From the NCBI RefSeq assembly GCF_025685605.1, contig NZ_JAGTUT010000001.1, positions 2,418,001 to 2,482,000 of the forward strand: DNA of 64,000 bases. Direction: 5' to 3'. The first letter of the stretch is position 1; the number at the start of each line of letters is the position of its first letter. Below are positions 40,208 through 45,820 of this stretch, piece after piece. The notes below the pieces were generated by a model that saw only the letters and a list, made by a program, of their open reading frames with translations, was not told the DNA's origin and searched no databases. The stretch comes from Granulicella arctica (lineage in GTDB: Bacteria > Acidobacteriota > Terriglobia > Terriglobales > Acidobacteriaceae). Made by a program: the position numbers and the translations under genes.

Positions 40208-41527
40208 CTAGAGGTGCGGTGCCCAGCCCTTCTCATACTCGCGTCCCCACATCTCCATCGCCTTGGGATCGTTTTGGATCTTGCCGTCTTTCTGGTCGAG
40301 ATGCAGTTCGCGGCTTACCTCCCAGGCGACGTTCGATAGCTGGAGCATGGTGACAGCGACATTCCCCACGGCGACTGGAGCATTCAATTTTTCACCCTTC
40401 TGGATGCCGGCGATGAAGTTTGTGAAATGCAGGTCGGTCATCGAGTCTCGTCCGGTCAGGTCGGCCGATGAGGTCGCTTTTCCTGTCTTGAACTCGCTCG
40501 TCTTGTTCCCCTTCAGGTCGTAGACTTCATAGCCATCGCGATCGATCAGAACTGAACCTGTCGTTCCCATGATGACGGAACCGCGGTCGCGACCGTAGTA
40601 CTTCATTCCCTGGCAGCTCTTGCCCTCCCAAGTGATTACTTTGTCGCCGTAGTCGAAGCTGGTGACCAAGGTGTCGTAGAACTGCCAGTCGTCTTTGAAC
40701 TGGTAGCGCCCGCCGGACGACGTGATCTTCTGGGGATAGTCGACACCGAGTGCCCAGCGGCAGACATCGACCTCGTGTGTACCGTTGTTCAGCGTTTCAC
40801 CCGTGCCGTAGATGCGGAACCAGTGCCAGTTGTAGGGCTGCACGTTGTCCTTGTACGCTCTTCGCGGAGCAGGCCCTTGCCAGAGGTCCCAGTCGAGTTG
40901 TGGAGGCACTGGAGCCTCTTTGCCAACACCAATCGACTTTCTGACGTTGCTATACCAGGCTTTGGCGAAGTATGCGTTGCCGATGAGTCCGCCGTGAATC
41001 TTATCGACAATTTCGATAGAATGCGGCGACGAGCGTTGCTGCGTGCCCATCTGGACCAGCTTTCCATATTTCTTCTGAGCCTGGACCAACAAGGCACCTT
41101 CTGCCGGATTGTGGCTGCATGGCTTTTCGACGTAGACATGTTTTCCAGCCTGCAGACCGGCGATTGCCATAGGCGTATGCCAATGGTCGGGAGCGGCGAT
41201 CGTGACAGCGTCCACATCTTTCAACTGAAGGATCTCGCGGAAGTCTTTGCCGGTTGCTGGCGCATAGCCCATCTCTCGTTGGGTGCTGTCTGCAAACTTT
41301 TTCAGGATGTTGCTGTCCACATCGCAGACATGGGCAATTCGCACCGTATCTTTGTTAGCTTTCAGCGATGACAAATGAGCGTAGGCGCGCCCATTCAGAC
41401 CAATGACGGCGAAATTGAGGCGCCCATTCGATCCCATGATCTGTGCGTAGCTCTTGGCTGTGGATGCTACCGCTAGTCCGGCGGTGCCAACTGCGAGTGT
41501 ATCGAGAAACCTGCGCCTGGTAATCAT
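40208..41527 (-). CDS. Tat-exported Gfo/Idh/MocA-family oxidoreductase
   Basis: A 439-residue NAD(P)-dependent oxidoreductase. Start ATG 41527 opens a twin-arginine signal (TRRRFLDTLAVGTAGLAV) with GGAG upstream. The Rossmann fold (FAVIGLNGRAYAHL, VCDVDSN) and EKP motif (KHVYVEKPCSHNP) are typical, and the C-terminal sheet domain contains GTHEVDVCRWALGV. Secreted members with tightly bound NAD(P) act on sugars or glycosides. The substrate is unknown and it stands alone. Confidence 0.85.
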   Translation of the reverse strand: MITRRRFLDTLAVGTAGLAVASTAKSYAQIMGSNGRLNFAVIGLNGRAYAHLSSLKANKDTVRIAHVCDVDSNILKKFADSTQREMGYAPATGKDFREILQLKDVDAVTIAAPDHWHTPMAIAGLQAGKHVYVEKPCSHNPAEGALLVQAQKKYGKLVQMGTQQRSSPHSIEIVDKIHGGLIGNAYFAKAWYSNVRKSIGVGKEAPVPPQLDWDLWQGPAPRRAYKDNVQPYNWHWFRIYGTGETLNNGTHEVDVCRWALGVDYPQKITSSGGRYQFKDDWQFYDTLVTSFDYGDKVITWEGKSCQGMKYYGRDRGSVIMGTTGSVLIDRDGYEVYDLKGNKTSEFKTGKATSSADLTGRDSMTDLHFTNFIAGIQKGEKLNAPVAVGNVAVTMLQLSNVAWEVSRELHLDQKDGKIQNDPKAMEMWGREYEKGWAPHL

Positions 41528-41629
41528 CCTGCTCCCCATCGAAACTGGTGTTCCGCGCAGCATGTGACACGCAGACAGCGCAATGGTACCCGATCGAGCG
41601 GACAACACGGAAGTCTGAGTCATCTGGCC

Positions 41630-41669
41630 AAAAAGATAAGGACCTCTGCACAGAGAGATCCTTATCTTT
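41630..41669 (-). terminator. Rho-independent terminator of the acidic-protein gene
   Basis: An 11-base-pair stem (AAAGATAAGGA at 41632-41642 with its complement at 41659-41669) plus an inner CTCT/AGAG pairing. On the minus strand it runs into TTTTT. It lies 47 bases past the acidic-protein stop and separates it from the Gfo/Idh/MocA gene. Confidence 0.8.
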
Positions 41670-41716
41670 ACTTGGATGAAAAAATCGGTCGCTACAGTGC
41701 GAAACGTTCGATAAAC

Positions 41717-42076
41717 CTATCGAGTCTTGACGCGGAGAGGCTTCGGATCGTCGTCAGTTTCTTCATCTTCCTCGTCTTCGTCCTCGTCGTCGTCATCCAA
41801 CTCGTCGTCATCGTCTTCGAGGTCGTCGTCATCCTCATCATCGTCGTCCTCATCGTCATCGTCTTCGAGGTCGTCGTCATCTGGATCAATAACCTTGTCA
41901 GCCTTGTCTTCGTCTTCGTCCTCGCTGTCCTCATCATCGTCGAGTGGCGTTTTGGCTGCAGAGAGAATGTCGTTGTTGTATGCAGTAAAAGCGAAGGTCG
42001 GATCGAAGGCAGCAGTCGGTGCCGCGCCCATGGTGACGATGTTCAAAGATTCCGTGTATGTTTCGGTCGTTGCCAT
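41717..42076 (-). CDS. Extremely acidic small protein of unknown function
   Basis: A 119-residue protein in two parts. Residues 1-45 are ordinary and Thr/Ala-rich (SLNIVTMGAAPTAAFDPTFA) with no signal peptide. Residues 46-119 are a low-complexity tail in which 54 of 74 are Asp or Glu, ending in a basic RVKTR. The ribosome binding site AGGAG lies 7 bases before the ATG and a strong terminator follows, so it is a genuine transcription unit. The codons in the tail are largely GAT/GAC/GAG in quasi-repeats. I do not recognise the family. Possible roles are cation binding, nucleic-acid mimicry or a chaperone-like tail, all inference. Confidence 0.72.
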   Translation of the reverse strand: MATTETYTESLNIVTMGAAPTAAFDPTFAFTAYNNDILSAAKTPLDDDEDSEDEDEDKADKVIDPDDDDLEDDDDEDDDDEDDDDLEDDDDELDDDDEDEDEEDEETDDDPKPLRVKTR

Positions 42077-42170
42077 GATTGTTCTCCTGGGTCGGTGTGC
42101 TTGCTGGCTTTTGGATGCACGTGTTTGGAAGAGGATAGCAAGATGTCGGTGGAAATCAATTAATCCTCGT

Positions 42171-43628
42171 TCACAAAGCCTCGTTTTCAGCGAATGGTTG
42201 CAACTGGGCCAGGGTCGGCTTTGGGGTGATTAAGCTTACGATCACCAGGCAGAGAAGCGATGCGAGCAGCGCCGGAAAGATGGCATCCCGTTCGGCCAGC
42301 ACCGAGGGAAGATGATTGTGGATGAAGGCTGCATCCCAGAAGATGGTCACGACCGTGCCAGCCGCGATCGAGGCGACTGCCGCCTGGGCAGTCGCCCGCT
42401 TCCAGAAGAAGGCAGCGAGGATGACCGGTGTCAGCGCGGCCGCGTAGATGGTATACGCATAGAGCGATTTCTTCAGCACAGATTGAATGTGTTGCGATTG
42501 ATAGAGCGCCCAGAGCCCCAGCAGAACCACCATAAGGCGGCTAACGATCAGAATCTTCTTGTTGGAGGCTTCGGGCACCATGTAGCGCAGATAAATGTCG
42601 TTTACCAGATTTGTCGCTGGAGAGAAGAGCCAGTTGTTTGCAGTGGAGATGATCTTCGCGAATATTGCTCCCATCAGGAGTGCTCCGAGCAACTGCAGGG
42701 GCAACGCGCCTGAGAAGCCATGCAGACCAAGATAGGCCAGGATTTCGCGAGGCCGCTCATGCACCTCGCCTGTCGGAAACAGGCTGGACCCAACGACCGC
42801 AAGAGCGACGATGACCGTTTCGAGGATGACTGTGCCAATGATCCACCAGAAGACGGCGCGCGTTGCATCTTTTTCGGATCGTGCCGAAAAGAACTTCTGA
42901 TACATCGACTGATTGCCCAGCAGGAGCAGGCAGGTGGGAAGAAAAAGCTCAAAGCCCTGGATAAGAGAAAGATCCCCGAGAACTTGAAAGTGCGATGCCG
43001 GCAGGCTGGCATGGACGGCCGCCCATCCACCGGCACGATGGATCAGCACAGGCAGAGCGGCACATATGGTAAAGGTGGCAAGCAGCCCAATGGCCACGTC
43101 CATGTAGGCAACCGACGCCATGCCTGCAATCGCAGTGAAGACGATCACGAAGGCAGCAAGGATGAATTGACCAAGGACTGGAGTGATTACCGTCGGAAAG
43201 ATGAGGTGCAGAATGTCTCCGCCGCCTACAAACTGATAGCTGGTCACTGCAGTGTAGGTAAAGAGGATGGCGATGACGCCGAGAACGCGCGCCGTCTGGT
43301 TATACCGCGCCTCGAGGAGGTCTGGAATCGTGAACTGGGCAAACTTCCGTGCTCGCGGAGCGATGAAATAGATCAGCAACAGCCCAGCCCAGCCTCCACC
43401 TCCCTGCCAGAGCGCGGCGAAACCGTGCCGATATGCATTCTCAGCGCCGCCCAGCAGCGATCCCGATCCAATCCAGCTTGAAAGCAGGGTAAAGACTAGA
43501 ACGAACGCCGGCAGAGATCGCCCTGCGACGAGATAATCAGCCTTGGTCTTGACGCTCCTAAGGCGAGTCAGCGATACGGTCAAGAGGGTGACGACGATAG
43601 CGGCAAGTACGGCGGCGTAAAGGTTCAT
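42171..43628 (-). CDS. Sodium:solute symporter (SSS family)
   Basis: A 485-residue membrane protein with about 13 helices. SSS hallmarks include KADYLVAGRSLPAFVLVFTLLSSWIGSGSLLGGA in helices 2-3 (here in parts) and GALLMGAIFAKIISTANNWL around the sodium-binding helix. ATG 43628 is taken as the start because it opens helix 1 (MNLYAAVLAAIVV); GTG 43679 would add 17 residues, and neither has a good ribosome binding site. Substrate unknown. The gene is 94 bases upstream of the acidic protein on the same strand. Confidence 0.87.
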   Translation of the reverse strand: MNLYAAVLAAIVVTLLTVSLTRLRSVKTKADYLVAGRSLPAFVLVFTLLSSWIGSGSLLGGAENAYRHGFAALWQGGGGWAGLLLIYFIAPRARKFAQFTIPDLLEARYNQTARVLGVIAILFTYTAVTSYQFVGGGDILHLIFPTVITPVLGQFILAAFVIVFTAIAGMASVAYMDVAIGLLATFTICAALPVLIHRAGGWAAVHASLPASHFQVLGDLSLIQGFELFLPTCLLLLGNQSMYQKFFSARSEKDATRAVFWWIIGTVILETVIVALAVVGSSLFPTGEVHERPREILAYLGLHGFSGALPLQLLGALLMGAIFAKIISTANNWLFSPATNLVNDIYLRYMVPEASNKKILIVSRLMVVLLGLWALYQSQHIQSVLKKSLYAYTIYAAALTPVILAAFFWKRATAQAAVASIAAGTVVTIFWDAAFIHNHLPSVLAERDAIFPALLASLLCLVIVSLITPKPTLAQLQPFAENEAL

Positions 43629-43684
43629 GTTGTGAGGGGATTGTAGAACAGCCGTCGCCCCGAACCTCAACACTGTCACATGAT

Positions 43685-44740
43685 CTATAAACTGCCAGGA
43701 GAGGTTGGCGCGCTCACGCTGTACGCCGGTGTCACTCGTGCCATCTCTGTAGCCAGTCCTGCGACGAGTTGAGCAGGCGAGGTCGCCAGGTGTCGCTCTG
43801 CTGCATAAGCTTCTATTTCACTGTTCATTTCGGCTCCCAGAAGGAGCATGAGCCCGGTTATATAGAACCAGGTTAGAAGAATGATGACCGCACCAAGCGA
43901 GCCATAGGTAACGGAATAGTTGTTGAAGAAGTGCAGATAAACCCGCAGAGCGAAGGAGGAAAGCAGCCAGCAGATGATGCCGAAGAGGGCACCAGGGGTG
44001 AACCACCGCCACTGCTTGTTACGGACATCCGGACCCCAGTAGTAGATCACTGCGAACAGGAGTGCCAGCAGTATCGTAGCGATGGTCCAGCCGACGATGC
44101 GTGCAAAGATCACGATCGGCATGGCGAGCCGGGCTTGGACGATGTGATTATGAGCGAGCACCGCCAGGAAGTCGCCGCCCAGTAACGAGGCGAGGATGAG
44201 CGTCACAATGAACGAGAGCAGGATGGTGATGAGAATGGCTGAACCGCGCACCTTCCAGTAGGGTCGAGTCTCCTTGACCTTGTAGACGACGTTCAGAGAG
44301 TCCTGAATCGCGGTGAACCCTACGGAGGCAGCCCAGACAGCGGCTGCAAGTCCAAAGGTCAGCTTCCCGCTGGTGGAAGACGCTGTTGTCTGATTAAAGG
44401 TGTCCAACACGATGTTGTACGCCGACGGCGGGATGATGAGCGCGAAATAATGGAGAAGATGGACATAGATCGTCGTGGCAGACTTTGCGGCAAGTCCAAG
44501 AATGGAACTCGCACTTACCAGCGTGGGGAAAAGGGCGAAGAGGAAGTAATAGCCCAGTTCAGCGGCGCGCCCGAGCAGGTTGTCGTCCAAAAATGAGTTC
44601 ATGGTTCGCTTCGCCAGGACGCTTAGCGGCATGCCCTTCAGATCCCATAGGGAGTAGAGCGGCTTGAGCGAGACGTAACCCCAAATCTTCTGCTGGCGGT
44701 GATGGGCGGCGTAGTCCAAATCATCGTTTGAGGTGCCCAT
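43685..44740 (-). CDS. YihY/BrkB-family inner-membrane protein
   Basis: A 351-residue protein with six membrane helices and the YihY signature: LGYYFLFALFPTL in helix 1 and YGSLGAVIILLTWFYITGLMLLLGAE near the end. The start ATG 44740 has AAGGAA seven bases upstream; a frame reaching 45061 would overlap the divergent MBL gene and is rejected. Function of the family is unsettled, despite the old RNase BN label. It ends 57 bases before the SSS symporter start. Confidence 0.88.
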   Translation of the reverse strand: MGTSNDDLDYAAHHRQQKIWGYVSLKPLYSLWDLKGMPLSVLAKRTMNSFLDDNLLGRAAELGYYFLFALFPTLVSASSILGLAAKSATTIYVHLLHYFALIIPPSAYNIVLDTFNQTTASSTSGKLTFGLAAAVWAASVGFTAIQDSLNVVYKVKETRPYWKVRGSAILITILLSFIVTLILASLLGGDFLAVLAHNHIVQARLAMPIVIFARIVGWTIATILLALLFAVIYYWGPDVRNKQWRWFTPGALFGIICWLLSSFALRVYLHFFNNYSVTYGSLGAVIILLTWFYITGLMLLLGAEMNSEIEAYAAERHLATSPAQLVAGLATEMARVTPAYSVSAPTSPGSL

Positions 44741-44851
44741 AAGGAATTCCTTTGGGTAAATAGATGCGTTTCTCGTCAAATTTGGTGGCTGCACCTGGGT
44801 TGGTTTGAAGCGGAGTGATCCCGGCAGGCATCCAATCTTTTGGTGATATGA

Positions 44852-45820
44852 ATGCGCAACGCAGCATCTGCAGCTTCGGCGGCTACACGACGCAGCCTCT
44901 GGAAGCACCGTCCCTTCGCCATGCGGAAGATCGAACAACTGGTAAAGCTGGTTCACGAGAGCCACGCGGTGCCGTTGTCTGGGGAGTCGCGACCAGTCGA
45001 CCTGGTGCAGCCGGGCGAGCTGGGCGTAACCTTCATCGGGCACTCCTCTTTCCTTCTCCAAATCGGTGGCAGGAATGTGCTAATCGACCCAGTGTTTTCG
45101 ACCCGACTGGTAGTGCTTCGACGCCAGCGGAGACCGGGCGTCCTGGTTGCAGCGCTCCCACCGATCGATCTGATTTTGCTAACCCACGCGCACATGGATC
45201 ACCTTGATAAATCTTCGCTCCGAGCAGTGGTGCGGGCGACGCGCCGGCTTCGCGGGAACGGACAGGATAGTGCACCGGAGGTGATCGTTCCTCGTGGCGT
45301 AGAAGATCTGGTTGCGTCCCTCGGATTTTCGAAGGTTCAAGGCATGAGTTGGTGGGACCAGATCAGCGTGCAGGGAATCGAGGTTACGATGACTCCCTGC
45401 AAACACTGGGGAGCCCGGATGTTCCGCGACACGCACCGAGGTTACGGCGGCTATTATGTCGCTCGCGGTGGGCACAGTGTCTATCACTCGGGCGATACGG
45501 CATATTTCCCTGGGTTTGCAGAGGTCGGGAGCCGACTGAAGCCGGAGGTGGCGCTATTGCCTATCGGCGCTTACTTCCCGGACACGTATCGCTCCGTTCA
45601 TACCAGTCCGGAGGAGGCGGTGCGTGGATTCGTCGAGTGTGGCGCTCAGACGATGGTCCCGATGCATTTTGGAACATTTCGCCTTGGACGTGAGCCGATG
45701 GAGGAACCCGTCCAGCGTCTGCTGGCTGAGGTCGACCGTTTGGGAATTCGCAGCAAACTCAAGGTGCTGGCTGAGGGCGAGACCCTTCGGCGCGCACGTC
45801 CAGCGGTTATTCAGCGCTAG
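44852..45820 (+). CDS. MBL-fold metal-dependent hydrolase (UlaG/NAPE-PLD-like)
   Basis: A 322-residue metallo-beta-lactamase-fold protein. The metal motif is THAHMDHLD, followed by CKHWGARM, SGDTAYFPGF and the final MPMHFGTF-like histidine (VPMHFGTF). This arrangement is that of NAPE-phospholipase D-like and UlaG-like hydrolases. No signal peptide is evident, though the N-terminus (about 25 residues before MRKIEQL) is Arg/Ala-rich and could be shorter. Divergent from yihY by 111 bases. Substrate unknown. Confidence 0.85.
   Translation: MRNAASAASAATRRSLWKHRPFAMRKIEQLVKLVHESHAVPLSGESRPVDLVQPGELGVTFIGHSSFLLQIGGRNVLIDPVFSTRLVVLRRQRRPGVLVAALPPIDLILLTHAHMDHLDKSSLRAVVRATRRLRGNGQDSAPEVIVPRGVEDLVASLGFSKVQGMSWWDQISVQGIEVTMTPCKHWGARMFRDTHRGYGGYYVARGGHSVYHSGDTAYFPGFAEVGSRLKPEVALLPIGAYFPDTYRSVHTSPEEAVRGFVECGAQTMVPMHFGTFRLGREPMEEPVQRLLAEVDRLGIRSKLKVLAEGETLRRARPAVIQR

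Follow-up and report, generated by a model that had tools for sequence, protein, structure and literature searches.

The window, by which we mean the whole stretch of 64,000 nucleotides of Granulicella arctica DNA that was analysed, contains on its minus strand a gene for a polyacidic protein of 119 amino acids (41717..42076, from the ORF listing and its translation). Its conserved upstream neighbour is an SSS-type sodium:solute symporter (42171..43679, minus; Pfam SSF, E = 6.6e-33, and synteny). Beyond this lies a BrkB/YihY-type membrane protein (43685..45061, minus, Pfam PF03631; these are the bounds of the listed ORF, and its start is uncertain), and in genome G005 the acidic gene is likewise next to one of BrkB type. 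On the other side, past the terminator, is a Gfo/Idh/MocA oxidoreductase (40208..41623, minus; Pfam). This occupies the place of a convergent 2-hydroxyacid dehydrogenase in the relatives, for which there was no match in the window genome or in G050 at 1e-30.

The preliminary description had reported that 54 of the last 74 residues of the protein are Asp or Glu, and this is what we find for the minus-strand ORF at 41717-42076. Delimited by script, the acidic tail comprises 69 residues (41741..41947, minus), with 54 acidic residues divided into 39 Asp and 15 Glu, and the net charge of the protein is -51. The tail is followed by a basic C-terminal cap, PLRVKTR (41720..41740, minus), and the C-terminal sequence PKPLRVKTR is common to the window protein and its nearest relative (G050). 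The N-terminal 45 residues (41942..42076, minus) are a diverged form of the N-terminus of a family described below, as judged from alignments A1, A2 and A4 and from profile matches. A serine-rich ORF runs across the acidic tail on the opposite strand (41727-42233, plus); it mirrors the GAN codons, and was not taken as a gene.

The window ORF is a genuine gene, equipped with control signals of its own. Thirty first-order Markov resamples of the window (1.92 Mb) produced no ORF with a stretch of at least 20 acidic residues in 30, and the real window has only one, that at 41717..42076. On the basis of these resamples and of the codon-position rates in relatives we reject an origin by chance or in low-complexity non-coding DNA. 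The clean ribosome binding site noted earlier is confirmed as AGGAG (42084..42088, minus), 8-12 nt before the ATG. The leader has the form TATCCT-N13-GCATCCAA, in which a -10-like box TATCCT (42132..42137, minus) lies exactly 13 nt before GCATCC, and the element GCATCCAA (42111..42118, minus) is common to relatives. The 5′ leader of the window gene has no notably stable fold (z = -0.75).

Downstream of the gene, folding of the RNA at 41610-41716 (minus) revealed an intrinsic terminator (41630..41669, minus), a 16-bp hairpin leading into a U-run with z = -2.87 relative to 200 shuffles. The strong terminator that had been ascribed to the gene is thus upheld for the window. A simple consensus scanner applied to 41550-42300 returned no terminators and no promoters; by our own reading it probably missed the terminator since some of the U-run is taken up by the A/T-flanked stem. 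In the relatives a crude script covering 120 nt found no terminator in 12 of the 31 members that lie at the symporter, and mostly poor ones elsewhere, and a strong terminator of its own is observed for the window gene only. No Rfam family was found at gathering level in the gene, and a match to sR52 inside the ORF was rejected (22.7 bits, against 50 for gathering).

Neither Pfam, NCBIfam nor PHROGs gave a convincing family, and no relative was found among PDB sequences, using the whole protein or a profile of N-termini. The early statement that the protein belongs to no recognisable family therefore stands against these collections, even for the first 45 residues alone; the homology search with that segment, proposed at the same time, matched no characterised family. 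The best NCBIfam match of the N-terminus was LpxG (E = 0.012; 15 bits, the cut-off being 350), which we take as noise. Matches of the whole protein to CobT, PPP4R2, Nop14, a sigma factor and the like had E values of 0.1-10, far below cut-offs; CobT, PPP4R2, the sigma factor and others with acidic linkers resemble it in the acidic low-complexity stretch only. A short paralog gave one weak match in PHROGs (phrog_38176, E = 0.098), also rejected. Literature searches found no description of this family, only general precedents. AlphaFold2 modelling with 22 family members (pLDDT 62.9, pTM 0.12) yielded no helix of four or more residues and no strand of three or more, with at most a three-residue helix. 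The protein is thus predicted to be disordered, and its N-terminus has no predicted folded domain.

The preliminary description also called the protein an orphan with no partner, in the sense of conserved neighbours, and on both counts our results differ. Members are present in 50 of the 62 genomes of the genus, mostly in a similar chromosomal spot, when identified by position, composition or profile. Profiles alone recover 30 of the 62 (A2, E up to 0.1) or 29 (A4, E up to 0.01), and the rest of the 50 are assigned by position, composition and leader. The symporter was matched in 61 of the 62 genomes. The DNA downstream of it was examined at 57 loci in 56 genomes, 20 of them re-fetched with more DNA; several loci have little downstream DNA (e.g., 568 bases in G009), and misses there are not firm. 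An acidic gene lies downstream on the same strand at 31 of the 57 loci (30 genomes), so that the symporter is a conserved upstream neighbour. These 31 members have N-termini of 36-50 residues and tails of 49-77 residues. AGGAG precedes the start in 30 and GGAG in the remaining one (G029b), a uniformity that is partly circular because the starts were chosen partly by their Shine-Dalgarno sequences.

The gap between the symporter and the acidic ORF exceeds 1.2 kb at 13 of the 31 loci. Eight such loci were listed, all with a similar ORF of about 420 residues in between; seven have a convergent ORF after the acidic gene that resembles a D-2-hydroxyacid dehydrogenase, an assignment tested with Pfam in another locus. 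The one intervening gene that was tested encodes a GGDEF protein (L094:5843-7105, plus, in G054; Pfam E = 1.5e-45); it is absent between the symporter and the acidic gene in the window. Fourteen genomes have no acidic gene at the symporter and have one adjoining the dehydrogenase instead (G005, G049, G025, G055, G027, G038, G059, G040, G033, G011, G009, G034, G004 and G008). Members at neither locus occur in G020, where the tail is short (19 of 30 residues acidic), and in G019, G030, G006, G026 and G035. Four sequences counted as members (L210, L213, L215 and L219) have a quite different N-terminus. No member was found in 12 of the 62 genomes; since seven of these are at least 96% complete, the gene is either dispensable or unrecognised there.

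Compared with 100 genomes, the first 45 residues of the window protein gave, besides the window itself, weak matches only. The best of these was to G050 (40% identity, E = 0.067), where synteny agrees: the ortholog lies just downstream of the same symporter, and its C-terminus is DPKPLRVKTR. The C-terminal pattern DDPKPLRVK (up to two mismatches) was rejected as a marker of the family. It is exact in the window and G050, and five further genomes have it at two mismatches; none of the five has a family-like acidic ORF in a scan at 15 in 30, the 15-of-30 ORF in L021 being unrelated.

Outside the genus, three genomes of one other genus (G144, G190 and G162) have an acidic gene adjoining and downstream of an SSS symporter, identified by Pfam in G162 and by eye in the other two. 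An order-level search with A2 found the family in 26 of 249 genomes (2 of 62 genera). A family-level search with A4 gave 11 of 250 genomes (4 of 79 genera), falling to nine genomes in two genera when G292 and G354 are dropped, weak matches (E = 0.006) at which no acidic ORF was seen. At the level of the phylum there were 12 of 396 genomes, every one from the genus of the window (1 of 210 genera). Scoring was confined to the best 26 candidates per genome in the family-level search and to the best 16 in the phylum-level search. With so few candidates scored, and with diverged members missed by profiles, this range is a lower bound. Two scans of genome contigs confirmed no relatives; their tblastn step may filter acidic sequence. 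These proteins constitute an undescribed, fast-changing, lineage-restricted family of small and apparently unfolded proteins.

The best-kept part of the family is the motif GPDATATFDNSxSNPTEHASSE, followed by the acidic tail and often by a basic C-terminus. The window protein is a diverged member, with GAAPTAAF and NDILSAA at the corresponding positions of the proposed pattern G-x-D-x-x-A-x-F ... S-E-x-L-x-A-A; its gene also has the long acidic tail and the GCATCC leader by which we would recognise the family. With A2 its score is 60.6 bits (E = 1.1e-15), and with A4 it is 40.4 bits (E = 2.5e-9); these values are partly circular, as the protein is a row of both alignments. At least two Lys or Arg residues are found among the last eight in 21 of the 31 symporter-locus members; caps differ between subfamilies, and the basic cap is absent in some members.

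The motif is clearest, as GPDATATFDNSxSNPTEHASSEATNAAT, in a set of short paralogs (82-92 residues in those aligned) that are less acidic than the symporter-locus members. At all eight loci examined (L150-L153, L157, L164-L166) the short paralog adjoins a DUF2278-type gene (MPITNYSVLAGKPTAGKVVTG...), assigned by Pfam in one locus (E = 1.3e-56), and the pair may form a two-gene unit. Within the 3 kb examined, an RmuC-like ORF is nearby at five of the eight (Pfam RmuC, E = 1.5e-57 in one).

The leader is shared within the family. GCATC[CT] occurs within 170 nt upstream of the start in 27 of the 31 symporter-locus members and in 7 of 8 paralogs examined, and 23 of the 31 have a box T[ACT][AT]C[CT]T at a distance of exactly 13 nt before it; the L150-L153 paralogs lack a box at 13 nt, and their GCATCC is 71-73 nt away from the start. 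The pattern CACTNACYTT-N12-GCATCC has 19 exact matches in the 62 genomes (in 18 of them), all before a family member; it was drawn from family members and is matched by neither the window nor G050. Allowing one mismatch gives 52 places, against 27 for a reversed control. The strict combination of box and element occurs three times in the genome of the window, and the other two occurrences are not followed by a similar acidic ORF. As a general element GCATCCAA was rejected: there are two sites in the window, and 518 of 1120 permuted 8-mers are equally frequent.

In ten genomes of a related clade, the sequence that begins about 75 nt upstream of the start and extends over the first 45 nt of the gene has an identity of 0.82-0.93 per 20-nt block, compared with 0.13-0.64 further upstream. 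Of the codon pairs that agree in amino acid, 45 of 482 in columns 2-17 and 101 of 473 in columns 18-47 have different third positions; in the symporter the figure is 3600 of 8777 (41%, compared with 9% for columns 2-17). The promoter-leader region and the first ~16 codons are therefore constrained at the nucleotide level in this clade. The GCATCC element may be either part of a promoter with an operator or a signal in the mRNA leader. The leader (42077-42140 in the window, and the upstream regions of the relatives) and the first ~16 codons may also hide an RNA or translation signal.

Selection on the tail was measured in nine related genomes of this clade, which has a different cap and to which the window genome does not belong. 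All pairs were compared; they share one tree and are not independent, and gaps make the alignment of the tail uncertain. Subject to this, 1910 comparisons of GAN codons in the tail gave 35 changes at the first position and 30 at the second, with 500 synonymous and 576 Asp/Glu changes at the third. In the symporter, 749 comparisons of GAN codons gave 25 first-position, 2 second-position, 174 synonymous and no Asp/Glu changes. Four-fold sites in the symporter changed in 3820 of 7980 comparisons (1433 transitions and 2387 transversions). Third positions thus differ in 56% of tail GAN pairs, compared with 48% of four-fold pairs, and synonymous change is mildly above the share of transitions at neutral sites. 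Third positions in the tail change at about the neutral rate; acidity is kept, and the choice of Asp or Glu hardly at all, as fits bulk electrostatics. For the last ten columns, which read VDELQVGRRR in this clade, dN/dS is 0.043, comparable with 0.037 for the symporter, and the cap is under purifying selection there. The N-terminus has dN/dS = 0.60, with a low dS of 0.38.

The neighbourhood of the gene is ordinary. What is unusual is a polyacidic tail with little else, evolving under charge selection. Our best explanation, to which we assign a probability of roughly 0.4, is that the gene product is a free-standing, intrinsically disordered polyanion whose ends dock onto a partner and whose tail competes with nucleic acid. 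The leader, Shine-Dalgarno sequence and terminator of the window gene suggest that it would be expressed as an independent unit. The N-terminal motif, the cap or both would attach it to the partner, and the docked tail could then mimic nucleic acid or compete electrostatically for basic surfaces. We counted in favour of this the existence of the family, the selection for charge in the tail, the predicted disorder, the gene's own control signals and the precedents. Against it, the symporter locus has no conserved neighbour related to nucleic acids, since a transporter, a GGDEF protein and a 2-hydroxyacid dehydrogenase are what is found there. The N-terminus, for which no folded domain is predicted, the lack of a basic cap in some members and the 12 genomes without a recognised member also count against it, and bulk acidity would suit a cation or pH buffer just as well.

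Long Asp/Glu tracts are familiar mainly as appendages of other proteins. In the delta subunit of RNA polymerase a folded N-terminal domain binds the polymerase. The C-terminal region of delta (RpoE) from Firmicutes is described as unstructured and negatively charged (PMC7749167). The window protein likewise has an acidic C-terminal region that is predicted to be disordered; it differs in its N-terminus, of about 45 residues and also predicted to be disordered, and in that the family often has a basic C-terminal cap. No match to the delta N-terminal domain was found in Pfam, NCBIfam or PDB sequences, and by sequence the window protein is not of the delta family. The acidic C-terminal tip of Hfq is described as a disordered peptide that mimics nucleic acid (PMC5606850). 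That tip acts in cis to the Sm core, whereas the acidic chain described here makes up the greater part of a protein of its own. Unlike the tails of delta and Hfq, a small separate protein would act in trans. Prothymosin alpha, although eukaryotic, is comparable as a small, nearly wholly disordered polyanion with basic residues near its C-terminus; in the window protein the disorder is predicted.

With less assurance, we suggest that the family as a whole comprises lineage-specific stand-alone polyanions that act in trans as general nucleic-acid mimics. Mainly charge would be kept in the tail, with the control region, the start region and the C-terminal cap conserved, and the genes would possibly be governed via the 5′ element TNACYT-N13-GCATCC.

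Selection for acidity alone fits all of the roles suggested in the preliminary description, a nucleic-acid mimic, a cation binder and a buffer. The main alternative, which we regard as somewhat less likely, is that the protein is a cytoplasmic buffer or sponge for metals in stress or storage, with Ca2+, Mg2+, Fe or Al bound by its Asp-rich tail. Asp exceeds Glu in 27 of the 31 tails, as it does in the window protein (39 against 15), the retention of acidity without residue identity would suit loose binding of cations, and the conserved upstream neighbour is a transporter of some kind. A sponge would, however, have no need of the shared N-terminal motif or of a basic cap that is strongly conserved in the clade measured, and there is no metal-handling gene among the neighbours named by Pfam.

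It is improbable that the protein is instead a docked regulator or subunit of one specific protein, such as the DUF2278 protein or the symporter, with the tail as spacer or solubiliser. The association of the short paralogs with DUF2278-type genes (8 of 8 loci examined) and the N-terminal motif common to that locus and the symporter locus are what such a subunit would lead one to expect. Yet the two loci do not have the same neighbours, the acidic gene at the symporter locus is often separated from the symporter by a GGDEF gene, and many members have a promoter-like leader of their own.

A shared N-terminal motif followed by a variable tail is also the organisation of a precursor of a modified peptide, with a conserved leader and an acidic core that is modified. 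We consider this very unlikely, as the core varies chiefly by Asp/Glu exchange and in length, and no maturation enzyme is adjacent: the neighbours named by Pfam are SSF, BrkB, Gfo/Idh/MocA, GGDEF, 2-hydroxyacid dehydrogenase, DUF2278 and RmuC, and among the others, read by eye only, none was noticed. Scarcely credible is an artefactual ORF across a GAN microsatellite, or alternatively an RNA gene with the leader as its sole conserved part, despite imperfect arrays reported by a tandem-repeat finder (68-73% matches, and one 19-nt array at 92%) and the nucleotide-level conservation of the leader and first ~16 codons, because codon positions 1 and 2 of the tail are nearly frozen with position 3 free, the cap has the low dN/dS given above, frame and length are kept in 31 loci, and no Rfam family is found at gathering level.

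In this case the majority of genomes in a bacterial genus retain a stand-alone gene for an Asp/Glu tract, and dozens of natural variants exchange Asp and Glu almost freely. This is a natural experiment that bears on which properties (charge, length and ends) a disordered polyanion has to retain in order to be useful, and it provides an undescribed gene family for the study of nucleic-acid mimicry or metal buffering.

The RNA polymerase alpha subunit encoded in the same genome (G000:C1:2692282-2692316; L002:379-1572; Pfam RpoA domains) itself ends in an acidic run, FDDDDDDDEDEDDDFELPAGNEPENF. As a lead only, this may bear on a role for free acidic tails that is linked to the polymerase.
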